A stretch of 64,000 bases of DNA from Quadrisphaera setariae (GTDB taxonomy: Bacteria > Actinomycetota > Actinomycetes > Actinomycetales > Quadrisphaeraceae): the NCBI RefSeq assembly GCF_008041935.1, contig NZ_VKAC01000007.1:186001-250000 (forward strand), read 5' to 3'. The notes under the pieces were generated by a model that was not told where the DNA came from, searched no databases, and saw nothing but the letters and a program-made list of their open reading frames with translations. A program made the translations under genes and the position numbers. Below, one piece after another: positions 1-12,649 of the stretch. How positions within the stretch are numbered: position 1 is the first letter of the stretch; each line of letters starts with the position of its first letter.

Positions 1-527
1 TGCTCGGGCCCGCCGATCCAGACCAGCACCATGCGCTCGGCGATGGCCGGTTCCAGCAGGTAGGCCGAGGCGACGTCGGTGAGGCCTCCGCCCGCGCAGT
101 AGTACAGCGGACGGTCGTCGTCGCGCATCGCCTCGGCGATGATCGCTCGCGCAGCCTGGGAGTCGCGCGGGGTGGTCGTGTCGAGCAGAGCCTCGTCGGC
201 GCCGAGGACCACGCGGCTCCCGCCCTCGACGTCCGCATCGGAAGCATCCAGGCCCATGACGTCGAGCAGCTCGTGCACCCGCGCCAGCGCGTTGGCGGCG
301 CTGCCCGGGCCGGGGTCGAAGGGGTCGCCCGGGGCGAGGTGGGAGGCGACCACGAGCCGCACGTCCACCGCCGGCGACAGGAGGTGGTGCACCAGCTGGT
401 AGAGGTCGTCGGGGTCACCGGAGAAGTCGTTGTCGGCGATGACCCGCACACGCGGCGGGGCCAGCGGCGGCTCACCGGGCAGCCAGCGGTGGTCGCCGAT
501 CGACCAGGTGGCTGGAGTGGACGTCAT
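1..527 (-). CDS. Nucleoside hydrolase-like protein (3' part outside window)
   Basis: The first 175 residues are visible; the gene runs off the left edge. Near residue 30 it has an acidic cluster, DNDFSGDPDD, followed by alternating hydrophobic strands and a GGGLTDVA segment. This resembles the Asp-rich calcium and ribose site of inosine-uridine nucleoside hydrolases (DTDxGxDD), but with a longer loop, as in Sde182-type nucleoside-hydrolase-like domains. The ATG at 527 is preceded by AGGAG. It starts 33 bases after the permease gene stops and lies on the same strand, so it is probably the fourth gene of the sugar ABC operon. It should hydrolyse an N- or O-furanosyl bond in the cytosol. Substrate specificity is inference; the family call is fairly firm. 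Confidence 0.75.
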   Translation of the reverse strand, partial: MTSTPATWSIGDHRWLPGEPPLAPPRVRVIADNDFSGDPDDLYQLVHHLLSPAVDVRLVVASHLAPGDPFDPGPGSAANALARVHELLDVMGLDASDADVEGGSRVVLGADEALLDTTTPRDSQAARAIIAEAMRDDDRPLYYCAGGGLTDVASAYLLEPAIAERMVLVWIGGPE

Positions 528-560: not shown

Positions 561-1469
561 TCAGCCCTTGACGGCGCCGGAGAAGGCCCCGGCGACGAAG
601 TAGCGCTGGAACATCAGGTAGACGATCAGCACCGGAACGGCCGACATGATGATGAAGGCGTTCAGCGGCCCGTAGTCGGTGGCGTGCTGGCCGCTGAAGC
701 CCAGCACCGCCAGCGGCACCGTCCAGTTGTCCTGGCTCTGCAGCAGCGTCGCGGCGATGGCGTACTCGTTCCAGGTCGCGACGAAGTCGAGGATGAACAG
801 GGCTGCCAGAGCGGGCTTGGCCAGCGGCAGGCAGATCTGCCAGAAGATGCGGAAGGTCGAGGCGCCGTCGATGCGCGCCGACTCCTCCAGCTCGTCGGGG
901 ATGGCCCGGAAGAAGCCGTAGAGCATGAAGATCTGGTACGGGATGCCGAACGCCAGGTACGGGAGGATCAGCCCGAGCTTCGTGTCGAGCAGGTCGAGGC
1001 TCAGCATCGTGGTGAAGAGCGGACCGAGGCCGACCTGGATGGGGACCATCGACCCCGCGGCCAGGAGCCCGAGGACGAGCTTGGAGAAGCGGAAGCGCAG
1101 GCGTGCCAGCGCGTAGGCCGCCGCCGCGGCCAGGAGCAGCCCGAGCGGCACCTTGATGACCGCCACCAGCAGGCTGTTGGCGCCCGTCACCCAGAGGTTC
1201 CCGGTGTCGACCGCGTCGGCGTAGTTGCTGAAGAGCCACTCGGTGGGCAGGTACCACGGCGGCGCGGTGTTGACGTCAGCCCTGCTCTTCACCGAGGTGA
1301 GGAACATGAAGACGAACGGCAAGGCCCAGACCAGCGCTGAGATGGCCAGCGAGATCCACAGGCCGATGCTGACGTAGTCGCGCCGGGGCCGGTTGGCCGG
1401 CGGCGCCGGCACAGCGGCGACCTGGCCGCCGCTGGCAGCGGGGTTCGCGAGGATGGTGGCGCCGCTCAT
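561..1469 (-). CDS. Carbohydrate ABC transporter permease (MalG/CUT1 type)
   Basis: A 302-residue inner-membrane permease with about six hydrophobic segments. Near residues 190-210 it carries the EAA loop (EESARIDGASTFRIFW...LPLAKPAL), which docks the ATPase in binding-protein-dependent sugar importers. The protein ends in the family-typical GAFSGAVKG. The ATG at 1469 overlaps the preceding permease stop as TGATG, so the two permeases are translationally coupled. No ATP-binding subunit is encoded in the visible operon. CUT1 systems in actinobacteria often share a distant MsiK-type ATPase, which is the likely explanation. Regulation should come from the promoter/operator upstream of the binding protein at 3868-3896. 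Confidence 0.93.
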   Translation of the reverse strand: MSGATILANPAASGGQVAAVPAPPANRPRRDYVSIGLWISLAISALVWALPFVFMFLTSVKSRADVNTAPPWYLPTEWLFSNYADAVDTGNLWVTGANSLLVAVIKVPLGLLLAAAAAYALARLRFRFSKLVLGLLAAGSMVPIQVGLGPLFTTMLSLDLLDTKLGLILPYLAFGIPYQIFMLYGFFRAIPDELEESARIDGASTFRIFWQICLPLAKPALAALFILDFVATWNEYAIAATLLQSQDNWTVPLAVLGFSGQHATDYGPLNAFIIMSAVPVLIVYLMFQRYFVAGAFSGAVKG

Positions 1470-2398
1470 CAGTGCTCCTCGGCCTTCAGGGTTCGGACCA
1501 GGTAGGGGACGACCAGGCAGAGCGAGAGCACCAGCAGCACGGTGGCGATCGCGCCGCCCTGGCCGAAGTCGTGGTTGGAGAACGACTGCTGGTAGGACCA
1601 CAGCGCCAGCACCTGGGTCGACTGCGCGGGGCCGCCGCCGGTCATGCCGACGATGAGGTCGAAGACCTTCAGGGAGTTGATGATCGTCAGGATGATGACC
1701 ACTGCGGTGGTCGGGCGCAGGGCCGGGATCGTCACGGCCTTGAACACCTGCCAGCGGTTGGCGCCGTCCACCCTCGCCGCGTCGACCAGCTCGGCGGGCA
1801 CCTGCTGCAGACCGGCGAGGAAGAGCACGAGGCTGAAGCCCACCCCCTGCCAGACGCTGGCGACGAAGACGGAGTAGAGGGCGATCTTCGGGTCGCCCAG
1901 CCACTGCTGCTGCCAGGAGGCCAGGCCCACCGCTTCGAGGAACTGGTTCAGCGAACCGACCGTGGGGTTGTAGATCCAGCGCCACATCGCCGCGACGGTG
2001 ATGGAGGCGAAGACGGCGGGGATGTAGAAGACCGAGCGGAAGAGGTTCCGGCCGATCATGCGCCGGTTCAGCGCGAGGGCCAGCAGCAGCCCGAGCAGCA
2101 TCGGCACGAGCAGCGACAGCACCACCCAGATCACCGAGTTGCTGAGGGCCGTGTAGAAGACCGGGTCGTTGGTGAGCATGCGCACGTAGTTGCGAAGGCC
2201 CACGAACTCCGGCTCGCTGGTGCGGAAGCCGTTCCAGGAGAAGAACGACAGCCGGACGGCGTCGAGCATCGGGTAGACGAGGAAGGCCACGTAGAGGCCT
2301 GCGGCCGGGACCAGGTAGGGCAGGGCTCGCAGGAAGCGCCTGTCACCCCGGCGCCGGGGTGCCGCTGGGGGCGCTGGCGGGCGTTCGAGGACCGACAT
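1469..2398 (-). CDS. Carbohydrate ABC transporter permease (MalF/CUT1 type)
   Basis: A 309-residue membrane protein with six predicted helices, the first at about residues 27-47 (LVPAAGLYVAFLVYPMLDAV, the usual start of the MalF/UgpA family). The EAA motif near residues 210-230 reads LVDAARVDGANRWQVF. It should pair with the MalG-type permease encoded by the next gene, with which it shares one base (TGATG). The ATG at 2398 is preceded by GGAG. A 12-bp stem-loop separates it from the binding-protein gene upstream. Together they form a sugar importer; the neighbouring catabolic genes suggest a branched pentose, its acid or a glycoside as ligand, which is inference. Confidence 0.93.
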   Translation of the reverse strand: MSVLERPPAPPAAPRRRGDRRFLRALPYLVPAAGLYVAFLVYPMLDAVRLSFFSWNGFRTSEPEFVGLRNYVRMLTNDPVFYTALSNSVIWVVLSLLVPMLLGLLLALALNRRMIGRNLFRSVFYIPAVFASITVAAMWRWIYNPTVGSLNQFLEAVGLASWQQQWLGDPKIALYSVFVASVWQGVGFSLVLFLAGLQQVPAELVDAARVDGANRWQVFKAVTIPALRPTTAVVIILTIINSLKVFDLIVGMTGGGPAQSTQVLALWSYQQSFSNHDFGQGGAIATVLLVLSLCLVVPYLVRTLKAEEH

Positions 2399-2460
2399 GT
2401 CACGTCTCCGGGTCGGGTGGGCGGGCGAGCCGAGGGGTGGTTGCGGGGAGGGCGGGCGCC

Positions 2461-2493
2461 GGCCGGCCCGGGGGTCTCCCTCCCGGGCCGGCC
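2461..2493 (-). terminator. Intra-operon stem-loop after the binding-protein gene
   Basis: A perfect 12-bp inverted repeat, GGCCGGCCCGGG / CCCGGGCCGGCC with a 9-base loop, lies in the 101-base gap between the binding-protein stop (2500) and the permease start (2398). There is no T-run. In sugar ABC operons such a stem usually acts as a partial terminator or 3' stabiliser, so that binding protein outnumbers permease. The structure is read directly; the role is inferred. Confidence 0.7.
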
Positions 2494-2499
2494 GACCTG

Positions 2500-3756
2500 T
2501 CAGGACTCGCTCTCGATGAACTTCTGCATCTGCGCGCCGGCGTCGGCCGGGGCCGTCTCACCGGTGAGGACCGAGTTCATGATCCGCCAGTACTCGGTGG
2601 TCTGGGCCAGGGTGAGGTTCTGGTCGTTGTTCAGGTAGAAGCCCTTGGCCGCGTCGTACAGCGGCGGCCAGAGCTCGTGCAGGGGGTTGTCGGTGGCCGG
2701 GGTCACCGCGGTGTTCACCGAGATCGGCGACCAGACGCCGACGACCTTCTTCTGCTCCTCGGTGGAGGTGATGAAGTCGAGGAACTCAGCGGCCTGGTCG
2801 GCCTTCTTCGTGGCGGCGTTGATGTAGAAGCCCTCGCCGAAGCCGTAGAGGCGGTCGGTGCCGGTGGGGAACTTGAAGATCCCGACGTTGGCCGGGTCCA
2901 TGCCGTTGTCGACGACCTGGGAGTCGAACCACGTGCCCTCGTACGCCATGGCGGCCTCGCCCGTGTAGAAGAGCTGGCTCGACTCGTCGTTGGACACGCC
3001 CTGGAAGCCCTCGTTGAGGTACTCGCCACCCCACGTCTTCAGCTGGTCGAAGGAGCGACCCACGCAGTCCGTGTCCCAGCTGGTCTTGGCCGTGACGAGC
3101 TGGTCGAAGGTCTCCGAGCCGCAGTTGGTCTCCAGCAGGGAGTCGAGCAGGCGCATGACGTGCCAGTTGACGGTGCCGCCGAACTCGATCGGCGTGATGC
3201 CCGCCGCCTTGATCTTGGCCGCGGCCGCTTCGAGCTCGGCGTACGTCGTCGGCTCGGCGGTGACGCCGGCCTTCGCGAAGAGCTCCTTGTTGTAGTAGAT
3301 CGCCTCGGCCTGCTGGGTGAAGGGCACGCCGTGGTACCCGCCGTAGCGCGTGATGTTGCTGAGGGTCGCCTCGCCGAAGCGGTCGCCCCATCCGTACTTC
3401 TCGTACTCAGCGGTCAGGTCCTTGCTGAGGCCGGCCTCGACCAGCTCACCACCCAGCCCCGGGCCCTCCCAGTACCAGTAGACGTCGGGCCCCGAGTCGG
3501 TGCCGGCGACCTGGCGCAGGGCGTCCTTGTGGGCGTCGGTGGAGCGGGTCTCGACCTTGACGGTGACGCCCTCGTGGGCGGCCTCGAAGTCGCTGACGAG
3601 GGTGTCCATCGCCGTCTTCTGCGAGCCCTCGAGCGTCAGCATCCAGACGGTGAGCTCGTCGTCTCCGCCGGCTCCGCCGGAGCTTCCTCCGCAGGCCGCC
3701 AGGGTGGCGACCACGCCTGCCGCGGCCACCGCGGCGAGCATCTTCTTGACGCGCAA
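2500..3756 (-). CDS. Sugar ABC transporter substrate-binding lipoprotein
   Basis: 418 residues. The N-terminus has basic residues, a hydrophobic stretch and a lipobox ending LAAC with Cys near position 22, followed by a Gly/Ser linker, so it is a lipid-anchored extracytoplasmic protein. The body resembles family 1 extracellular solute-binding proteins: a DELTVWML start, then GGYHGVPFTQQAEAIYYNK, the typical hinge strand, and a FYINAATKKADQAAEFLDF segment. The start is TTG at 3756, preceded by GGAGG five bases upstream; an internal ATG at residue 6 would leave a poorer signal peptide. It is the first gene of the transport operon, downstream of a promoter with an embedded operator. The ligand is unknown; the context suggests D-apiose, apionate or an apioside. 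Confidence 0.93.
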   Translation of the reverse strand: MRVKKMLAAVAAAGVVATLAACGGSSGGAGGDDELTVWMLTLEGSQKTAMDTLVSDFEAAHEGVTVKVETRSTDAHKDALRQVAGTDSGPDVYWYWEGPGLGGELVEAGLSKDLTAEYEKYGWGDRFGEATLSNITRYGGYHGVPFTQQAEAIYYNKELFAKAGVTAEPTTYAELEAAAAKIKAAGITPIEFGGTVNWHVMRLLDSLLETNCGSETFDQLVTAKTSWDTDCVGRSFDQLKTWGGEYLNEGFQGVSNDESSQLFYTGEAAMAYEGTWFDSQVVDNGMDPANVGIFKFPTGTDRLYGFGEGFYINAATKKADQAAEFLDFITSTEEQKKVVGVWSPISVNTAVTPATDNPLHELWPPLYDAAKGFYLNNDQNLTLAQTTEYWRIMNSVLTGETAPADAGAQMQKFIESES

Positions 3757-4148: not shown

Positions 4149-4883
4149 TCAGTCGCTGCTGCTGCTCAGTCGGCGCGTGGCGGTCGCCATGTGGGTCGCC
4201 ATCGCGGCGGCCGCGGCGTTCTCGTCGCCGTCCCGGACGGCCTCGTGGATCGCCTCGTGCTCGTCGCAGGCGGTCTGCGCCTCACCCTGGCTGCTCACGG
4301 CCCTGTCCGCGTAGACGCGCAGCAGGGAGCGCACCACGGAGAGCAGGTCGGTGACCAGGTCGTTGCCCGCGGTGGCGGCCAGGGCGTCGTGGAAGTCCTG
4401 GTCGGCCTTCGCGAAGGCGCGGAGGTCCTCGCCGGCGCGCCGCATGCGGCCCAGGGAGGACTCCTGGCGGGCGAGACCGGCGAGGCCCCGCCGACTGGCC
4501 GCCAGCCGAGCGATGTAGATCTCCAGCCCGGCGCGCAGCTCGAGCAGCTCGGACGTGGACTGCCGCCCGATGAGCAGTCCCCAGCGCAGGGTCTGGGGCA
4601 GCATCTCGCTCGCCGTGCCGCGCAGGTACGTGCCCGACCCGGGCCGCACGTCGACGATGCCCAGGATCTCCAGGGCGGCCAGCGCCTCGCGCACCGCGGA
4701 GCGCCCCACGCCCAGCGTGGAGGCCAGCTGCCGCTCGGGGGGCAGCCGGGTCCCCGGCTGCACGGTGCCTCCCAGGAAGAGGTCGAGCAGCCGCCGGGCG
4801 ACCTCCGACGCAGGCGTGCCGCTCGGGACGGCACCCAGGGATGCGGAGATGACGGCCGCCTGGTCGTCGGGGAATGCGGGCAC
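4149..4883 (-). CDS. GntR-family regulator with FCD ligand domain
   Basis: 244 residues. An N-terminal winged helix-turn-helix at about residues 25-90 shows the GntR signature PGTRLPPERQLASTLGVGRS and then a GSGTYLRG wing. An all-helical FCD domain follows, with Asp/His residues in FHDAL, DEHEAIHEAV and ATHMA that normally hold a metal ion and bind carboxylate effectors. It lies between two operons sharing one operator sequence and is the obvious regulator of both. The effector may be a sugar acid such as apionate or an erythrulose derivative (inference). The GTG at 4883 sits 6 bases after a TACGCT hexamer, so the mRNA may be leaderless. No copy of the shared operator lies over its own start; autoregulation is uncertain. 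Confidence 0.93.
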   Translation of the reverse strand: MPAFPDDQAAVISASLGAVPSGTPASEVARRLLDLFLGGTVQPGTRLPPERQLASTLGVGRSAVREALAALEILGIVDVRPGSGTYLRGTASEMLPQTLRWGLLIGRQSTSELLELRAGLEIYIARLAASRRGLAGLARQESSLGRMRRAGEDLRAFAKADQDFHDALAATAGNDLVTDLLSVVRSLLRVYADRAVSSQGEAQTACDEHEAIHEAVRDGDENAAAAAMATHMATATRRLSSSSD

Positions 4884-5052: not shown

Positions 5053-5526
5053 ATGGCTGATGCACTGCGCCTGGTCATCGGCAGTGATGACGCAGGACAC
5101 CGGTACAAGGAGGCCCTCAAGGCCGACCTGTCGGCCAACCCCCTGGTCGCCTCCCTGGTCGACGTCGGCGTGGAGGCCGACGGCCACACGCCGTACCCCG
5201 CTGTGGCCGTCGAAGCCGCCCAGCGCGTCGCCGACGGTCTGGCCGACCGCGCCCTCCTGTTCTGCGGCACCGGCCTGGGGGTGGCGATCGCCGCCAACAA
5301 GGTCCCGGGCGTCCGCGCGGTCACCGCACACGACTCCTACTCGGTCGAGCGCAGCGTGCTGTCCAACGACGCCCAGGTCCTGACGATGGGCCAGCGCGTC
5401 ATCGGCCTGGAGCTCGCTCGCCGCCTCGTGCGGGAGTGGCTGACCCACCGCTTCGACACCACGTCGGCCTCAGCCGCGAAGGTCGACGAAATCAGCCGCT
5501 ACGAAGCACGCGTCGCCGGCAGATGA
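5053..5526 (+). CDS. derI: RpiB/LacAB-type isomerase, probable D-erythrulose-4-phosphate isomerase
   Basis: 157 residues, the usual size of the RpiB/LacA/LacB family. Recognisable are the N-terminal [12 protein letters not shown] strand-loop, and Cys71 in [19 protein letters not shown], the active-site cysteine of RpiB enzymes that opens the ring or shuttles the proton. In the tetritol and apiose pathways described for mycobacteria and other bacteria, this family converts D-erythrulose 4-phosphate to D-erythrose 4-phosphate, which enters the pentose phosphate pathway. A ribose-5-phosphate isomerase role is the alternative, but the neighbours favour the tetrose. ATG with GAGGAGG 7 bases upstream. 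Its stop overlaps the next start as ATGA. Confidence 0.8.
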
Positions 5527-6335
5527 GCCACCGGACAGACGCGGCCGCCCCCGCGCCTCCACGAGTCTCCGTGGGGATGAGCCTGAAGATGTACTTCGGT
5601 CACCACCAGGCCCAGCAGTGGTTCCGCCAGGTGGCCGACGGCCTGCGCTCCCGCCCGGCGGTCGCGGCCGGCGCCGTCGACGTCTTCGTCGTCCCCACCT
5701 ACCTGCAGATCCCTGCAGCGCTGCGCACCTTCGCCGGCAGCGGTGTGCGCATCGGCGCGCAAGACGTCGCGGCCGAGGACTCCGGCGCGTACACCGGGGA
5801 GGTCAGCGCCGCCGAGCTCGCCGAGGTCGGTGTCACCCTGGCCGAGGTCGGCCACGCGGAGCGCCGCCGCCTCTTCGGCGAGGACGACGCAGCCGTGGCG
5901 GCCAAGACAGCCGCAGCACTGCGCCACGGCATCCGCCCGCTGCTGTGCCTCGGCGAGCCGGACCGCTCCCCCGCCCCCCAGGCCGCCGCGACCGTCCAGG
6001 ACCAGCTGCTCTCAGCGCTGCACGACGCCCCCCGCGGCGCCCTGACCATCGCCTACGAGCCGGTCTGGGCGATCGGCGCACCCGCGCCGGCACCCCTGGA
6101 GCACGTGCGCGCGGTCGCCCGCCACCTGTCCTCGGTGCTCGCAGGCCTGCCCGAGCGCGCGGGCTCCACCGTCATCTACGGCGGCTCCGCCGGTCCCGGG
6201 CTGCTGACCGAGCTGGGAGACGACGTCGACGGCGTCTTCCTGGGCCGCTTCGCCCACGACCCGGCCGCCTTCCTCGCCGTCGTCGACGAGGCCGTCGCCC
6301 TGACCGGGTGGGCAGCGGACGAGGTGACGGCGTGA
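5523..6335 (+). CDS. lerI: Triosephosphate isomerase-like protein, probable L-erythrulose-1-phosphate isomerase
   Basis: 270 residues with a complete TIM active site: Lys in MSLKMYF near the N-terminus, His111 in EVGHAERR, Glu179 in AYEPVWAIG, and a phosphate-binding [11 protein letters not shown] near the end. The N-terminal motif departs from the NxK of housekeeping TIM (SLK), and the gene is far from any glycolytic cluster. This fits the EryH/LerI subgroup that converts L-erythrulose 1-phosphate to D-erythrulose 4-phosphate. It follows the RpiB-like gene with a 4-base overlap and precedes the decarboxylase-like gene with another, so translation is coupled. Cytosolic. Confidence 0.82.
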
Positions 6336-7150
6336 TCGGCCTGAGCACGTACAGCTTCTTCTGGGAGCACTCCGACCGCGCGGTCGAGCCGCTCTCGCTG
6401 CGCGGCGCCTTCGAGGCCACCTCGGCCCTCGGCGTGGGGCTGTTCCAGATCTGCGACTTCGCCCCGCTGGAGGCCATGAGCGACAGGGAGCTCGCCGAGG
6501 CCGCTGCCACCGCTCGCGACCTCGACCTGGACGTGCAGCTCGGGACCAAGGGCCTGGAGCCCGTGCACCTGGCCCGCTACCTGCGGCTCGCGGAGGCGTT
6601 CGACGCGCGCCTGGTGCGCAGCATGGTGACGAGCCCGACGTCGTCGCCGTCCCCCGAGCAGACCGGCGCGTGGCTCGACGAGGTCCTTCCGGAGTACCAG
6701 GCAGCGGGGGTGGTGCTGGCGCTGGAGACCTACGAGCAGGTCGCCACCGCTGACCTCGTGGCGCTGGTCACCGCCCGCGGTGGCGACCACCTCGGCATCT
6801 GCCTGGACCCCGCCAACGTCGTCGCCCGCCTGGAGCACCCCCGCGACTGCGTCACCACCGCGGCCCCCCACGTGGTCAACGTGCACGTCAAGGACTTCGC
6901 CTTCGCACGCCAGCCCGGCTGGGTGGGCTTCACGTACTCCGGTGCCCCGATGGGCACCGGCATGCACGACTACGAGCACCTGCTGGCCACCGTCCGTCCG
7001 CGCGAGCGCGGGATCGACGAGGTGGTCGAGCACTGGCTGCCCTGGCAGGGCGACCCGGAGACCACCGTGCGCACCGAGCGCGCCTGGACCAGGGCCACCG
7101 TCGAGCACCTCCGAGCCGCCCGCGAGCCCGCGGCAGCTCCAGCCGCCTGA
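6332..7150 (+). CDS. oiaC: Xylose isomerase-like TIM barrel, probable 3-oxo-isoapionate decarboxylase
   Basis: 272 residues, starting with GTG at 6332 inside the preceding stop (GTGA). The fold signature is that of sugar phosphate isomerase/epimerases (AP endonuclease family 2). Metal ligands are expected in LALETYEQV, CLDPANVV, VHVKDFAF and VEHWLP, and all four segments are present. In the published apiose pathways, the OiaC enzyme of this fold decarboxylates 3-oxo-isoapionate to L-erythrulose; its placement beside an apionate-oxidoisomerase-like gene and an erythrulose-kinase-like gene supports that assignment. A generic hydroxypyruvate isomerase or sugar epimerase is the alternative. A 75-base gap with a 9-bp tandem repeat follows. 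Confidence 0.72.
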   Translation: MIGLSTYSFFWEHSDRAVEPLSLRGAFEATSALGVGLFQICDFAPLEAMSDRELAEAAATARDLDLDVQLGTKGLEPVHLARYLRLAEAFDARLVRSMVTSPTSSPSPEQTGAWLDEVLPEYQAAGVVLALETYEQVATADLVALVTARGGDHLGICLDPANVVARLEHPRDCVTTAAPHVVNVHVKDFAFARQPGWVGFTYSGAPMGTGMHDYEHLLATVRPRERGIDEVVEHWLPWQGDPETTVRTERAWTRATVEHLRAAREPAAAPAA

Positions 7151-7175
7151 CCTCCTCAGCCCGACCCGCCCCATC

Positions 7176-7211
7176 CGCCTGACCCGCCTGATCCGCCTGA
7201 TCCGTCTGACA
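7176..7211 (+). repeat. Four tandem 9-bp units
   Basis: Four consecutive copies of a 9-base unit (CGCCTGACC, CGCCTGATC, CGCCTGATC, CGTCTGACA) fill most of the gap between the decarboxylase-like and oxidoisomerase-like genes. They end just before the GAGAGG ribosome site at about 7215. No function is evident; replication slippage could make copy number variable. Confidence 0.85.
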
Positions 7212-7225
7212 CCCGAGAGGTTCCG

Positions 7226-8125
7226 ATGACCACCACCGCCAACGCCCCCACGACGCCGCAGGCCTCCACGTCGGCGACCATCGCCGTCGTCGGCGCCGGG
7301 GGGAAGATGGGGATGCGCGTCTCGAACAACCTGGTCAAGACCGACCACCGCGTCTTCTACGTGGAGAACAGCCCCGCCGGCCAGCAGCGCACCCGCGAGG
7401 CGGGCCGCGACCTCACTGACGCCGCCACCGCCGTCGCCCAGGCCGACATCGTCGTCCTCGCCGTCCCCGACCTCGCCCTGGGCGCGGTCACCGCTGACCT
7501 GGTGCCCCAGATGAAGTCCGGCGGCATCGTGCTCACCCTGGACCCGGCCGCCGCCTACGCCGGGCTGCTCACCACCCGCGACGACGTCGTGCAGGCCGTG
7601 GCCCACCCCTGCCACCCCTCGGTCTTCCTGCAGCGCACCACCCCCGAGGAGTACGCCGACACCTTCGGCGGCATCGCCGCCCCTCAGGACGCCATCGCCG
7701 CGGTGGAGTCCGACGACCCCGCCGTCGCCGCGATCGTCGAGGCCACCGTGCGCGCCATCTACGCGCCCGTCGTCGACGTGCACTTCGTGACCATCAAGCA
7801 GCTCGCCCAGCTCGAGCCGACGCTGGTCGAGACCGTCGCGTGCATGATCGGTGCGCTGCTCAAGGAGGCCCTCGACGAGGCCGTGGACACGATGGGCGTG
7901 CCCGCGGCCGCGGCCCGCAGCATGCTGCTCGGACACACGCAGGTGGCGCTCGCCAACGGCCTGCGCGGGGACAACCCGTTCTCCGACGCCTGCCTGATCG
8001 CCATGGACTACGGCCGGGAGAGCATCATCAAGGACGACTGGAAGAAGATCTTCCGCGACGACGAGCTCGACAAGAACCTCGCCCGCATGCTGCACCTCGA
8101 CTCGATCGACCGCGGCGAGCGCTGA
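7226..8125 (+). CDS. apnO: Phosphogluconate dehydrogenase-like oxidoreductase, probable D-apionate oxidoisomerase
   Basis: 299 residues. An NAD(P)-binding Rossmann domain opens with IAVVGAGGKMGMRVSNN near residue 20. The C-terminal helical domain matches the phosphogluconate-dehydrogenase-like C-terminal family (PF16896 type), with HPCHPSVF near residue 130 and DNPFSDACLIAMDYGRE near residue 255. In the apiose route ApnO oxidises D-apionate and shifts its carbon skeleton, giving 3-oxo-isoapionate, the substrate of the TIM-barrel decarboxylase encoded just upstream. ATG at 7226 with GAGAGG 6 bases before it. The SDR gene starts 3 bases after its stop, so it is in the same operon. Other members of this fold act on other sugar acids, so the substrate rests on context. 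Confidence 0.75.
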   Translation: MTTTANAPTTPQASTSATIAVVGAGGKMGMRVSNNLVKTDHRVFYVENSPAGQQRTREAGRDLTDAATAVAQADIVVLAVPDLALGAVTADLVPQMKSGGIVLTLDPAAAYAGLLTTRDDVVQAVAHPCHPSVFLQRTTPEEYADTFGGIAAPQDAIAAVESDDPAVAAIVEATVRAIYAPVVDVHFVTIKQLAQLEPTLVETVACMIGALLKEALDEAVDTMGVPAAAARSMLLGHTQVALANGLRGDNPFSDACLIAMDYGRESIIKDDWKKIFRDDELDKNLARMLHLDSIDRGER

Positions 8126-8128
8126 GCG

Positions 8129-8911
8129 GTGAGCACCACCCCCATCCCGTCCGGGCGCCTGGCCGGCAAGACGGCGCTGGTCACCGGAGCCGCCACCGGC
8201 ATCGGGCGCGCCGTGGCCGGGCGGTTCTCCGTCGAGGGCGCCCGGGTCGTCATCGCCGACCGCGACGCTGCCGCCGCTGAGCGCGCGGCCGCCGAGATCG
8301 GCACCTCAGCCCGCACCGCGGTCATGGACATCTCCGACGAGGCGTCCGTCCAGACGGCCTTCGCCGAGCTGGCCGAGGCGGGGTGGGCACCGGACGTCGT
8401 GGTCGCCAACGCGGGCGTGCAGCTGTTCGGGAAGGACGCCAAGGCCGGCGACCTGGACCTGGAGGTCTGGCGCCGCACGATCGACGTCAACCTCACCGGC
8501 ACCTTCCTCACGGTGAAGCACGCGGTGCGCTCGATGCTGGCCGGCTCCCCCGCGGGCGGGTCGATCATCCTCACCGGCAGTCCCACCGGGCTGAACGGCG
8601 AGGGCGCCGACTTCACCGCCTACAGCGCCTCCAAGGCCGGCATCCACGGCCTGACCCGCACGGTGGCCGCCGCCTACGCGGGCACGGGGATCCGCGTGAA
8701 CACCGTGGTGCCCGCCTACACCGAGACCTCGCTGGTCACCACCATCAGCGACGACCCGGAGGCTCGCCGCGCGATCGTCGGGCGCATCCCGCTCGGACGC
8801 GCGGGAGCCCCCCGCGACGTCGAGGGGATCATGGTCTTCCTCGCCAGCGACGACGCCGAGTTCGCCACCGGCGCGCTGTTCGCCGTCGACGGCGGCATGA
8901 CCACCCTCTGA
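8129..8911 (+). CDS. Short-chain dehydrogenase/reductase
   Basis: 260 residues of classical SDR type: TGAATGIG at residues 19-26 binds NAD(P), NAG follows near residue 90, and the catalytic YSASK is at 165-169 with a Ser in the ILTGSP strand before it. The C-terminus GALFAVDGGMTTL is standard. GTG at 8129, three bases after the upstream stop. The known apiose pathway begins with ApsD, a Gfo/Idh/MocA-family dehydrogenase that is not seen here. This SDR therefore is a candidate for oxidising D-apiose to apionolactone, or a related polyol or tetrose such as erythrulose/tetritol. The choice cannot be made from sequence. Confidence 0.9.
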   Translation: MSTTPIPSGRLAGKTALVTGAATGIGRAVAGRFSVEGARVVIADRDAAAAERAAAEIGTSARTAVMDISDEASVQTAFAELAEAGWAPDVVVANAGVQLFGKDAKAGDLDLEVWRRTIDVNLTGTFLTVKHAVRSMLAGSPAGGSIILTGSPTGLNGEGADFTAYSASKAGIHGLTRTVAAAYAGTGIRVNTVVPAYTETSLVTTISDDPEARRAIVGRIPLGRAGAPRDVEGIMVFLASDDAEFATGALFAVDGGMTTL

Positions 8912-8940
8912 CCGGCCGGCAGATCGAACGGGAGCAGGGA

Positions 8941-10770
8941 GTGAGCACGAGGACGGACGCGGCAGCGGCGTGGCTGGAGCCCGGCACCGACCACCGGCGG
9001 GGCGACTGGTCCTGGCAGCTCCGGGGCGACGAGGTCGCCGACATCGGCTACCGGGGCCGGCACCTCCTGCGCAGCGTGCGGGCCGTCAGCCGCGACGCCG
9101 ACTGGGGCACGCGCGCGCTGCGCGCCAGTGCGGTGCGCGAGACCACCACCGGCGTGCAGGTGGACGTCACCGTCGACGACGAGGACGGGTCGGCCCTGCT
9201 GGTCGGCACCGTCACCGTGGAGGCCGTCCACGCCCGGCTGACGGTCACCGCGCGCCTGGAGGCGCAGGCCGAGGTGCGGACCAACCGCACCGGCCTGGTG
9301 GTGCTCCACCCGACCCACCTCGCAGGCACCGCGCTGGCGGTGACCCACCCCGGCGGGGACGTGGAGGCCACGCAGTTCCCGCGGTCCGTCAGCCCCCACC
9401 AGCCGGCGGTCGAGATCGCTGGGCTCTCCTGGACCGACGGCGGCCTCGACGTCGCCGTCGGCCTCGAGGGCGACGTCTTCGAGATGGAGGACCAGCGCAA
9501 CTGGACCGACGCCTCGTTCAAGACGTACAGCCGGCCGCTGGCCCTGCCGTTCCCCTACCGGGTGGCTGCCGGGGAGGTCGTGCACCAGCAGGTGCAGCTC
9601 TCAGTGAGGACGACCGGCACCACCACGACGGGGGCCACGACGGGGGCGACGGGCAGCGGAGCCGGACGCCACCGCAGCGGCCACCAGAGCGAAACCGTCC
9701 GCCTGACCGCCGCGGAGACCTTCCCCGAGATCGCCGTGGGAGCCGCCACCGCGCCGGACCCGGCCCCCGCCCCGGCCGCCGTCGGGTCGGCGGTGCTGGT
9801 GGAGCTGGAGCTGGGAGACCCCCGGTGGCGGGCCGCCCTGGCCCGCGCCCGGGATGCCGGGCTGCCGCTGGACGTCCGCGTGGTGCTCGACGCTCGTGAC
9901 GCCCGGCACCTGGCCGCCCTCGACGCCCTCGTCGTCGCGCTGGTCGGCACCGACGTGGTGCGGATCGCCGCCTTCGACGTCGGCCGCCACGTGACCGACG
10001 TGGTGACCGGCGCCGTCCTGCGGGCGTCGCTGGAGGCCGCGGGCCTGGAAGCACCCGTGGTGGGAGGGGCCCGCTCGCACTTCACCCAGCTCAACCGGGA
10101 GCAGGAGGACCTGGCCTCTGGGCTGCTCGGCACCACCTTCAGCACCACCCCGCTGTTCCACGCCGTCGGCACCGAGCAGCTGGTCGAGTCCGTCGCGGTG
10201 CAGCGAACCGTGGCCGAGCAGGCGGTGGCCATCGCCGGTGGCGGTCCGGTGCACGTCGGTCCGGTGACGCTGCGCCCGCGGTTCAACGACGTGGCGACGA
10301 CGCCGCCCAGCCCGCCCGATGCGCCCACCGACGACGGAACGGCCGCCCCACCGGAGGGCCTGCCCGAGGGGTACGGCGCCCAGCAGCAGGGGCACGACGA
10401 CCCGCGCCAGAGCGCGCCGCAGCTGGCCGCCTGGACCATCGCCTCCGCAGCTGCGCTCGCCGTGCCCGGCGTGGCGAGCCTGACCTACTTCGAGGAGTGG
10501 GGCCCCCGCGGCATCCGCACCGCGGACGGCGACGACCTCCCGGTGGCCGCGGCCCTGCGCGCCCTGGCCGACCTCGCCGGTGGTGAGCGGCTGGTCGGTC
10601 CGAGCCCTGACGGGCTCGTCTGGGCCGTCGGCGCCACCAGAGGACGGACCACCACCGTGCTGGCCGCCAACCTCGACACCAGACCCCGGCGCCTGGTGGT
10701 GGAGACACCGTGGGGCTCGCTCATCACCGGCCTGGGCGCTGGCGCCTGGTCGGCGAGCACCCTCGGATGA
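8941..10770 (+). CDS. apnL: Probable D-apionate lactonase
   Basis: 609 residues from GTG 8941, preceded by GGGAGCAGGGA. The N-terminal ~215 residues are a beta-rich domain ending in FEMEDQRNWTDASFKTYSRP. After a low-complexity Thr/Gly linker (about 220-245) comes a TIM-barrel-like part with ASLTYFEEWGPRGIR near residue 520, then a small C-terminal beta domain. Size and domain order match the ApnL lactonases that open D-apionolactone to D-apionate. It sits next to apnO- and oiaC-like genes, as expected for that pathway. The linker is longer and more Thr-rich than I would expect and may vary between strains. No signal peptide, so cytosolic. Family recognition is from memory of these motifs, not from a search. 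Confidence 0.7.
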   Translation: MSTRTDAAAAWLEPGTDHRRGDWSWQLRGDEVADIGYRGRHLLRSVRAVSRDADWGTRALRASAVRETTTGVQVDVTVDDEDGSALLVGTVTVEAVHARLTVTARLEAQAEVRTNRTGLVVLHPTHLAGTALAVTHPGGDVEATQFPRSVSPHQPAVEIAGLSWTDGGLDVAVGLEGDVFEMEDQRNWTDASFKTYSRPLALPFPYRVAAGEVVHQQVQLSVRTTGTTTTGATTGATGSGAGRHRSGHQSETVRLTAAETFPEIAVGAATAPDPAPAPAAVGSAVLVELELGDPRWRAALARARDAGLPLDVRVVLDARDARHLAALDALVVALVGTDVVRIAAFDVGRHVTDVVTGAVLRASLEAAGLEAPVVGGARSHFTQLNREQEDLASGLLGTTFSTTPLFHAVGTEQLVESVAVQRTVAEQAVAIAGGGPVHVGPVTLRPRFNDVATTPPSPPDAPTDDGTAAPPEGLPEGYGAQQQGHDDPRQSAPQLAAWTIASAAALAVPGVASLTYFEEWGPRGIRTADGDDLPVAAALRALADLAGGERLVGPSPDGLVWAVGATRGRTTTVLAANLDTRPRRLVVETPWGSLITGLGAGAWSASTLG

Positions 10771-10867
10771 CCTGCTCCTCACGCCACCCCCGCCCCGTTC
10801 AGCAGCGCGACACCGCTGCGACCCCCTCCAGGCGCCTGCGGGCGCACGCCACCCTCGGGAGACGCCC

Positions 10868-12649
10868 ATGGCCCGCCTGACCAACGACCCCGCCCTCTTC
10901 GCCGACGAGGTGGCCGAGGGCTTCGTGGCCGCCCACGGCGACAGGGTCCGCCGCGTGCCCGGCGGCGTGGTGCGCAGGCGGCCGCTCGCCAGCGGCAAGG
11001 TGGCGGTGGTGGTCGGCGGCGGCTCGGGGCACTACCCCGCCTTCGCCGGCCTCGTCGGCACCGGCCTGGCGGCCGGCGCGGTGATGGGCAACGTCTTCGC
11101 CTCCCCCTCGGCCCAGCAGGTGCGCTCGGTGGCGCGCGCCGCCGACCGCGGCGCCGGGGTGCTGCTGGGCTACGGCAACTACGCCGGTGACGTCCTGCAC
11201 TTCACCGAGGGCGCCGAGCTCCTCGCCGCCGACGGCGTCCAGGTGGTGTCGCTGGCCGTCACCGACGACATCTCCAGCGCCCCGGCCGAGCGGGCGTCCG
11301 AGCGCCGGGGCGTGGCCGGCGACGTGGCCGTCTTCAAGATCGCCGGAGCGGCCGCCGAGGCCGGACTGGACCTCGCGACCGTGCTCCGCCTCGCGACCCG
11401 CGCCAACGAGCGCACCCGCACCTTCGGAGTCGCCCTGTCGGGGTGCACCCTGCCGGGATCCAGCCGGCCCCTCTTCGTGGTCCCCGCGGGCCGCATGGGG
11501 TTGGGCATGGGCATCCACGGGGAGCCCGGGACCGGTGAGAGCGACGTGCCCACGGCCGACGGCCTGGCGGACCTCCTCGTCGAGTCGGTGGTGTCCGAGC
11601 TCCCTCCCGGCGTCGCCGCAGCGGACGGCCAGCGCGCCGCCGTCCTGCTGAACGGTCTGGGCGGCATCGGCCACGAGGAGCTGTTCCTGCTCTACCGCCG
11701 GGTGGCGCAGCGGCTGGAGGGGCTGGGCGTCACGGTGGTCGACCCTGAGGTCGGCGCCCTGGTGACGAGCTTCGACATGCAGGGCGTCTCCCTGACCCTG
11801 ACCTGGCTGGACGAGGAGCTGGAGGCGTGCTGGCGCGCACCGGCGGACTCCCCCGCCTTCCGCCGCGGCGCCCCGGCACCCGACCAGGCCTCCGGCGACG
11901 CGGAGCTCCTGCAGGACGTCGACGACGACGAGGGGGACGGCGCGCTGGGCGGCGTCCGAGAGCTGCCGCGGGCCAGCAGCGACTCCCGGGCCTTCGCCGC
12001 GGAGGTCGCGGAGGTGCTGCAGCGGGTCACCCACCTCATCGACGCCCACGCCGAGGAGCTGGGCCGCATCGACGCCGTGGCCGGCGACGGTGACCACGGC
12101 ATCGGCATGCAGCGGGGCACCCGCGCGGCGGCGCAGGCGGCGGCCGAGGCCGTCGCGCGCGGCGCCGGGGCCGGCTCGGCGCTGGCGCTGGCCGGGGAGG
12201 CGTGGGCCGACCGCGCCGGTGGCACCTCCGGGGCGCTGTGGGGGGCGGTGCTGCGCGAGGTCGGCGCCGTCGTCGGAGACGAACGAGTTCCCGGCGTGAC
12301 CACGGCCGCCGAGGCCGCGGCCGCGGCGGGAGCGGCGGTCCACCGCCGCGGCGGTGCGGTGGTGGGCGACAAGACGATGGTCGATGCGCTGACCCCCTAC
12401 GTGCGGGTGCTCCAGCACGCGGCTGACCTCGGATCACCGGTGGCGACGGCGCTGCGGGAGGCGGCTCGAGCTGCGCAGGCCGGGGCCGACGGGACTGCGC
12501 AGCTGCTGCCGGTGAAGGGACGCGCCAAGACCCACGGGGAGCGGGCTGTCGGTACCCCCGACGCGGGCGCCGTCTCGCTCGCGCTCATCGCGGGCCTCGT
12601 GGCCGAAGCGGTGCGGCCGGCACCTCCGGCTGTTCCAGCCCAGCTGTAG
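10868..12649 (+). CDS. lerK: DhaK-DhaL fusion kinase, probable L-erythrulose kinase
   Basis: 593 residues: an N-terminal DhaK domain (about 1-330) with GGGSGHYPAFAGLVG and the substrate-linking His in GMGIHGEPG near residue 220, then a C-terminal DhaL ATP domain (about 375-590) with the Asp-rich AVAGDGDHGIGM loop near residue 405. Such ATP-dependent fusions phosphorylate dihydroxyacetone or L-erythrulose. As the last gene of this operon it should give L-erythrulose 1-phosphate for the TIM-like isomerase. ATG with GGGAG 8 bases upstream. It ends 14 bases before the convergent dehydrogenase gene, with no obvious terminator hairpin between. Plain glycerone kinase is the alternative. Confidence 0.85.
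   Translation: MARLTNDPALFADEVAEGFVAAHGDRVRRVPGGVVRRRPLASGKVAVVVGGGSGHYPAFAGLVGTGLAAGAVMGNVFASPSAQQVRSVARAADRGAGVLLGYGNYAGDVLHFTEGAELLAADGVQVVSLAVTDDISSAPAERASERRGVAGDVAVFKIAGAAAEAGLDLATVLRLATRANERTRTFGVALSGCTLPGSSRPLFVVPAGRMGLGMGIHGEPGTGESDVPTADGLADLLVESVVSELPPGVAAADGQRAAVLLNGLGGIGHEELFLLYRRVAQRLEGLGVTVVDPEVGALVTSFDMQGVSLTLTWLDEELEACWRAPADSPAFRRGAPAPDQASGDAELLQDVDDDEGDGALGGVRELPRASSDSRAFAAEVAEVLQRVTHLIDAHAEELGRIDAVAGDGDHGIGMQRGTRAAAQAAAEAVARGAGAGSALALAGEAWADRAGGTSGALWGAVLREVGAVVGDERVPGVTTAAEAAAAAGAAVHRRGGAVVGDKTMVDALTPYVRVLQHAADLGSPVATALREAARAAQAGADGTAQLLPVKGRAKTHGERAVGTPDAGAVSLALIAGLVAEAVRPAPPAVPAQL

Follow-up and report, generated by a model that had tools for sequence, protein, structure and literature searches.

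Nucleoside hydrolase-fold genes that recur beside D-apiose gene sets are candidate apiofuranosidases

Why should a sugar-importer operon that stands back to back with a set of D-apiose genes end in genes resembling nucleoside hydrolases? The question is raised by a 64,000-nucleotide stretch of the Quadrisphaera setariae genome (the window; G000:C7:186001-250000, host locus L006). The 5' part of one such gene, NH1, lies at its left edge (window 1..527, minus strand; ORF 3-527; 175 of 346 codons), recognised as an open reading frame, by its match to PF01156 and by the fold of its L124 orthologue. An earlier note, which had only this fragment, proposed that the product releases apiose from an imported apioside. 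The complete gene has now been recovered: NH1 encodes 346 aa at L006:10488-11528 (-), equivalent to window -513..527 and crossing the window edge. A second paralogue, NH2 (300 aa, L006:9560-10462), about 40% identical to NH1, lies 25 bp downstream, outside the window. NH1 starts 33 bp after the second permease gene (PermB), and NH1 and NH2 are the last genes of an ABC-importer operon divergent from an apionate-type D-apiose set (window 5053-12649).

The importer is encoded on the minus strand by SBP, an extracellular sugar-binding protein (2500..3756; SBP_bac_1, hydrophobic N-terminus), and two sugar ABC permeases, PermA (1469..2398; PF00528) and PermB (561..1469), the latter an open reading frame whose orthologues, 70-91% identical, adjoin NH1 at L040, L041 and L043. 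A GntR/FCD regulator is encoded upstream (4149..4883, minus strand; profile match) and a GntR homologue recurs at apn loci. No ATPase gene was seen between this regulator and NH2, a stretch in which the importer occupies window 561-3756; the ATPase is presumed to be encoded elsewhere and shared.

The divergent operon, on the plus strand, looks from its gene content like a complete apionate route to erythrose 4-phosphate. It begins with an RpiB-type isomerase (5053..5526; PF02502), from its context probably a D-erythrulose-4-phosphate isomerase. Its best NCBIfam match is the actinobacterial ribose-5-phosphate isomerase (197.8 bits, over the cut-off), and it scores 146.5 bits with the D-erythrulose-4-phosphate isomerase model, under the cut-off of 240. 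Context likewise suggests a probable L-erythrulose-1-phosphate isomerase in the TPI-type protein (5523..6335; PF00121), a probable OiaC in the xylose-isomerase-like TIM barrel (6332..7150; PF01261) and, at the far end, a probable L-erythrulose kinase LerK in the Dak1-Dak2 kinase (10868..12649; profile match). Between them lie a homologue of 5t57 (7226..8125; PF16896) that is probably the D-apionate oxidoisomerase, for which we assume the name ApnO, and an SDR (8129..8911; PF13561) that we infer to be a probable D-apiose dehydrogenase. The next gene (8941..10770) encodes a probable D-apionate lactonase, ApnL, whose sole NCBIfam match is NF049900, D-apionate lactonase, at 210 bits with an equivalog cut-off of 750; no Pfam family matched it. 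The steps in this operon are assigned after the route reported by Carter et al. 2018.

By profile score both NH1 and NH2 belong to the nucleoside hydrolase superfamily (IU_nuc_hydro, PF01156, cut-off 34.2: NH1 57.7 bits, E 2e-15; NH2 69.9 bits). They score far better there than with PF07632 (cut-off 26.8), which NH1 fails to reach (20.2) and NH2 just exceeds (29.6). These were the only two families matched in the Pfam scan at E 0.001, with no match to PF13204 and no Sde0182_C domain reported for either protein. With the NCBIfam nucleosidase equivalogs they reach 22-43 bits against cut-offs of 382-459, and their own genome holds three canonical PF01156 members besides. AlphaFold models were made for the L124 orthologues with 10 sequences each, the L124 NH1 being 95% identical to NH1, and gave pLDDT values of 79.6 (NH1) and 87.5 (NH2). 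The L124 NH1 model superposes on the solved nucleoside hydrolase 1mas with Z 28.6 and an rmsd of 2.7 over 273 aligned residues, while Foldseek matched the L124 NH2 model to 6zk5 (E 1.5e-17), and as modelled the two proteins have the nucleoside hydrolase fold. Simple hydropathy found no hydrophobic N-terminus in either; since they lack such a segment, unlike SBP, they are probably cytoplasmic.

The earlier note was right to see a nucleoside-hydrolase-like gene after the two permeases. The acidic loop it pointed to, DNDFSGDPDD (window 405..434, minus strand; NH1 residues 32-41, located by sequence and alignment), holds the first Asp cluster of the predicted Ca2+/sugar site. It is not canonical, being longer than the DxDPGxDD spacing of groups I-III: the motifs are DNDFSGDPDD and NTDAKNEADD, compared with DCDPGHDD in a canonical member from the same genome. 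To define the active site, apiose-linked members were aligned with the three canonical members of the window's genome (NH1 numbering; L066, L040, L199, the broken L062 and the short L071 left out). D34, D40, D41, E190, N192, D196 and D269 are kept in 25/25 apiose-linked members, and these include all the Asp ligands of the predicted Ca2+/ribose site (D34, D40, D41 and D269). The residue that precedes the last Ca2+ Asp, classically His, Trp or Cys, is Gly in all 25 and His in the canonical proteins. The His/Trp nucleobase loop is lost as well, the stretch that bears its His being 18 residues long, compared with 40-43 in the three canonical members. Newly invariant in the apiose-linked proteins are H47, H63, W170, Q213, Y219, R323, E327 and D328. 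In nucleoside hydrolases the kept positions serve as Ca2+ ligands, in water activation and as the pair that binds the 5'-OH; as the Asp/Glu/Asn set is retained and the loop and His are lost, the sugar half of the site has been kept and the base half discarded. Apiofuranose carries a cis-2,3-diol like that of ribofuranose, the site of the borate bridge in RG-II, and because of this resemblance the Ca2+ site could hold it. For the C. fasciculata nucleoside hydrolase, the review PMC8910321 describes most of the rate gain as coming from distortion of the ribosyl group, and reports cleavage of an O-glycoside, 4-nitrophenyl riboside (pNP-riboside).

In NH1-like members away from apiose genes, DPDG replaces DPDD in 10/14 (L044, L048, L049, L060, L065, L067, L068, L072, L205 and L207), so function may differ in NH1-like members off the apiose loci. 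Several of the DPDG type adjoin GH78, GH106, GH43 or GH1 genes. They may form a sister group that acts on a different substrate.

The neighbourhood of the pair was followed across 25 loci scoring at least 140 bits to NH1, with neighbours sought within about 10 kb; loci were counted by tblastn, a crude gene caller having missed genes at some of them. Apiose genes were present at 14 of the 25. Six loci are of the apn/oia type (L006, L040 from a congener, L045, L052, L054 and L057). Eight are of the aps/apt type (L041, L042, L043, L053, L055, L056, L058 and L061), with an ApsI-like isomerase, an FGGY kinase, a SorC-type regulator and a split transketolase, the AptA/AptB pair alone falling within 10 kb at L053, L055, L056 and L058, where ApsI is either 12-17 kb away or on a different contig. 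L199 repeats L045 and L124 repeats L040, each from the same genome (G129, the congener, for L040 and L124). The importer recurs as well: SBP, PermA and PermB orthologues (54-79%) lie with NH1 at the aps/apt loci L041 and L043 and, in a later second sample, L247, L248 and L249, and at L252 the same four genes stand beside an apn set. The remaining 11 of the 25 lacked apiose genes over this range of about 10 kb, and six of these (L044, L048, L049, L050, L051 and L059) carry GH78, GH43, GH3, GH42 or GH2 genes. In the second sample, 9/15 loci had apiose genes near NH and 6/15 had none, nor did the wider flanks of four of these six (G469, G582, G599 and G600).

The aps/apt genes at L041 are homologous to the D-apiose cluster of E. 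coli SE15 in kinase, SorC-type regulator and split transketolase (38, 42, 45 and 36% identity to RS02700, RS02705, RS02710 and RS02715), and according to PMC13001218 the tested carriers of this cluster grew on D-apiose. As E. coli has no apsI, the assignment of the ApsI-like isomerase rests on PF01261 and context. In a tree of the family (L040, L199, the broken L062 and the short L071 left out; the L042 NH2 cut at its first stop) NH1 and NH2 form two adjacent clades, clearly separated from the three canonical members, which are on long branches. Apiose linkage requires 5 changes on this tree compared with 16.2 when labels are shuffled; it is thus clustered, and is present in both clades. The broken L062 copy of NH1 (G177:C5:568014-568714) has in-frame stops, and the other NH1 copy in that genome has none.

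Linkage is also evident at the level of whole genomes. Among 198 genomes of the host's order, an NH1 relative (E 1e-10) was found in 25, ApnO in 27 and ApsI in 14, where the ApsI threshold of at least 300 bits keeps 14 of 17 matched genomes and drops G047, G183 and G154, the last with a 95-residue piece at 63% only. At least one marker (ApnO or ApsI) occurs in 19/25 NH genomes compared with 36/198 overall (expected 4.5; Fisher p 6e-12, kinship ignored); counted by genus, the figures are 11/14 NH genera and 13/72 genera overall (Fisher p 9e-9). G061, G073, G117, G145, G154 and G166 carry NH and no marker, and in the core genomes G061 and G117 neither marker was found. Of 15 newly drawn NH genomes in the second sample, 12 have ApnO or ApsI, a 33% match in G563 being excluded. 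The family is patchy, with NH in only 2/6 genomes drawn from the host genus, and rare outside the host's order, a class-level sample having yielded 7/296 genomes, including four that the order sample already contained.

A third gene set, from another phylum, carries the same association. On a Microvirga ossetica plasmid, an operon SBP-PermA-PermB-NH directly follows genes for a RuBisCO-like protein, a four-carbon acid sugar kinase and ApnO. Compared with the proteins of the window organism, its SBP is 31%, its PermA 48% and its PermB 40% identical, and its NH is 50% identical to NH2. Past a regulator come genes for a Gfo/Idh/MocA oxidoreductase and an ApnL-like protein, together with an ATPase and a permease of a second sugar ABC transporter. 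After the importer-NH operon lie genes for an IS66 transposase and a group II intron (L206:15410-19045), which suggests a mobile edge to the cluster. In M. lotononidis the ApnO and NH genes are about 3 kb apart, and among 60 of 251 listed plasmid records with ApnO, NH was present in these two Microvirga records only. The linkage therefore extends over three kinds of apiose gene set and two phyla, Actinomycetota and Pseudomonadota. As described, the three routes have only D-apiose in common, as the starting point. A gene that accompanies all of them would thus most likely work at a step ahead of apiose, or supply it. The co-occurrence with apn/oia genes on which the earlier note had staked its proposal was thus found repeatedly, and extends to two other apiose gene sets.

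This association is specific to the divergent members of the family. In 28 marker-bearing genomes (27 with ApnO, and G084), none of 50 canonical PF01156 genes (>100 bits) lies within 12 kb of ApnO or ApsI, compared with 11/23 divergent ones, the 100-bit split having been chosen after the scores were seen. Seen from the apiose side the association is partial: NH1/NH2 genes are near 9/80 apnO loci and absent within the flanks covered at 71/80 (15 of the 80 loci being not over 19 kb in length). The gene is thus accessory and does not serve apiose catabolism in general; on this count we rejected a core role in the apionate pathway. One apnO locus, L135, titled Planococcus sp. APC 4015, is Microbacterium-like (86% ApnO), and the assembly is probably mislabelled.

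The apnO loci have other glycosidases too. The earlier note's statement that this step is not part of the described pathways is true of the reported pathway steps, but release of apiose by another enzyme, the beta-apiosidase BT1012, is already known (PMC7939467). A tblastn search with five PF13204 pieces (E 1e-15), which may miss remote members, found a PF13204-type gene at 25 of the 80 apnO loci, compared with 9 for NH1/NH2 and an overlap of 0 (p 0.03); GH78-type genes lie within the flanks covered at 22/80. These two counts (L124-L203) point to a frequent tie between apionate sets and the breakdown of glycosides. That apnO loci take on apioside hydrolases is a weak hint that NH may fill the same slot as PF13204. 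PF13204, the 'Apiosidase' family, which we take to be CAZy GH140 with BT1012 as its type member, occurs in 15/42 genomes tested, with no match in the window's genome (E 0.001) or in its congener G129. G013 and G063 are exceptions in having PF13204 and NH near one aps set, and at L242 a weak (26%) PF13204-type match lies beside NH2 and an aps/apt set. At the genome level there was no complementarity, NH being present in 10/15 marker genomes with PF13204 and 9/21 without. PF13204 matches with lower scores are not necessarily apiosidases.

Genes of the Sde182_NH-like type (PF07632, DUF1593) occur at 4/80 apnO loci, at two of them beside NH1, and also beside NH2 in L042. Their positions are L126:972-2435, L153:1366, L042:4883-6388, L045 16.5 kb, L143 16.4 kb, L195 1.3 kb and L248 13.6 kb. 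They are a further family of the nucleoside hydrolase fold and may act on apiosides or other furanosides.

Taking gene context, kept residues and models together, we consider it probable that NH1 and NH2 act in the cytoplasm as O-furanosidases, probably dependent on Ca2+, and free D-apiose from imported apiofuranosides, and the earlier proposal of apiose release is to this extent supported. The adjacent ABC importer would bring apiofuranosides into the cytoplasm, where Ca2+, held by D34, D40, D41 and the late D269, may chelate the apiofuranosyl unit through its cis-2,3-diol. A water molecule activated by Asp would attack C1, with the E190/N192 pair binding the hydroxymethyl group. The free D-apiose would then pass to the SDR, ApnL, ApnO, OiaC, LerK and the TPI-type and RpiB-type isomerases. 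Substrate, metal, stereochemistry and general acid are all predictions here, as is the role of each pathway enzyme. A single reaction leaves two paralogues in one operon unexplained, which counts against the proposal. In a wider form, which we hold likely with somewhat less assurance, clades NH1 and NH2 would constitute a new GH family of Ca2+-dependent beta-D-apiofuranosidases with the nucleoside hydrolase fold, which in Actinomycetota and Pseudomonadota have come to be combined, more than once, with three or more biochemically different apiose pathways and often have their own importer.

The hydrolase might instead be directed at a different sugar in these plant glycosides (arabinofuranosyl or rhamnosyl, for instance, or the glycone that adjoins apiose), the apiose link then being indirect. 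The relatives that adjoin GH78, GH43, GH3, GH42 or GH2 genes and have no apiose genes would fit this, as would two more distant plasmid relatives: a Novosphingobium NH gene lies directly before a GH1 gene, and one from Croceibacterium, in a flavonoid/aromatic region, has genes for a GH106 rhamnosidase and for a quercetin dioxygenase nearby. These GH1 and GH106 settings fit plant glycosides, not apiose in particular. At L041, however, searches for the same five GH families around NH1 and its aps/apt neighbours came up empty, which leaves NH1 as the sole glycosidase candidate among the genes scanned there, and apiose is the common element over the three pathway types. We regard another sugar as an unlikely substrate. 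Action on apiose itself or an early derivative, by mutarotation, lactone hydrolysis or a reaction of phosphorylated or nucleotide-linked apiose, would agree with a fold that binds furanose rings and with a linkage to apiose pathways as such. Yet a lactonase candidate, ApnL, is already in the operon, the aps/apt route is not known to have a lactone step, and absence from most apnO loci is what would be expected of a substrate-specific front-end and not of a core step; such a reaction seems to us distinctly unlikely.

That NH1 and NH2 are ordinary salvage nucleoside hydrolases lying by chance in a sugar operon would account for the PF01156 match over cut-off and the shared fold. Against this, canonical members are never near the apiose markers in the 28 genomes where divergent ones often are, three canonical members already serve the same genome, and the equivalog scores are far below their cut-offs. 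The nucleobase loop and catalytic His are also lost, though some natural nucleoside hydrolases lack that His too, according to PMC8910321. On the equivalog scores, the canonical control and the lost base-site residues we rejected nucleoside salvage, which we think very improbable.

Apiose occurs in rhamnogalacturonan II and many plant glycosides and, to our knowledge, few apiosidases are known. If the apiofuranosidase reading of NH1 and NH2 is correct, the fold of nucleoside hydrolases has been redirected from nucleosides to O-linked plant glycosides through loss of the nucleobase loop with the sugar site kept, which would provide a new class of enzyme for deglycosylating apiosides. Genes now labelled 'nucleoside hydrolase', for example in Novosphingobium, Microvirga and Croceibacterium, would be reassigned. 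The fold and superfamily are known; as far as literature searches show, the predicted substrate, the residue signature and the gene context are new. No paper tying nucleoside hydrolases to apiose or apiosides was found among the titles listed, in a search that covered few subscription papers.

Four known systems invite comparison. The inosine-uridine nucleoside hydrolases (1mas, E. coli RihA 3g5i) share with NH1 and NH2 the fold, the Asp cluster, a Thr, the Glu/Asn pair and the last Asp, whereas NH1 and NH2 have a longer Asp loop, a deleted nucleobase loop, Gly in place of His and apiose-linked genes. The Sde182_NH-like proteins give a partial profile match over the Asp loop and are occasional neighbours of NH1/NH2 at apiose loci, though NH1 and NH2 score far better with PF01156. 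The PF13204 apiosidases share the predicted reaction and, in other genomes, adjoin apiose gene sets of the same kinds, but belong to a different Pfam family. Finally, the D-apiose routes of Carter et al. 2018 (apn/oia, aps/apt and the RuBisCO-like type) reportedly begin at free D-apiose. Their operons are the same as those neighbouring NH1 and NH2; here, in contrast, they are preceded by a hydrolase module that has an importer of its own.
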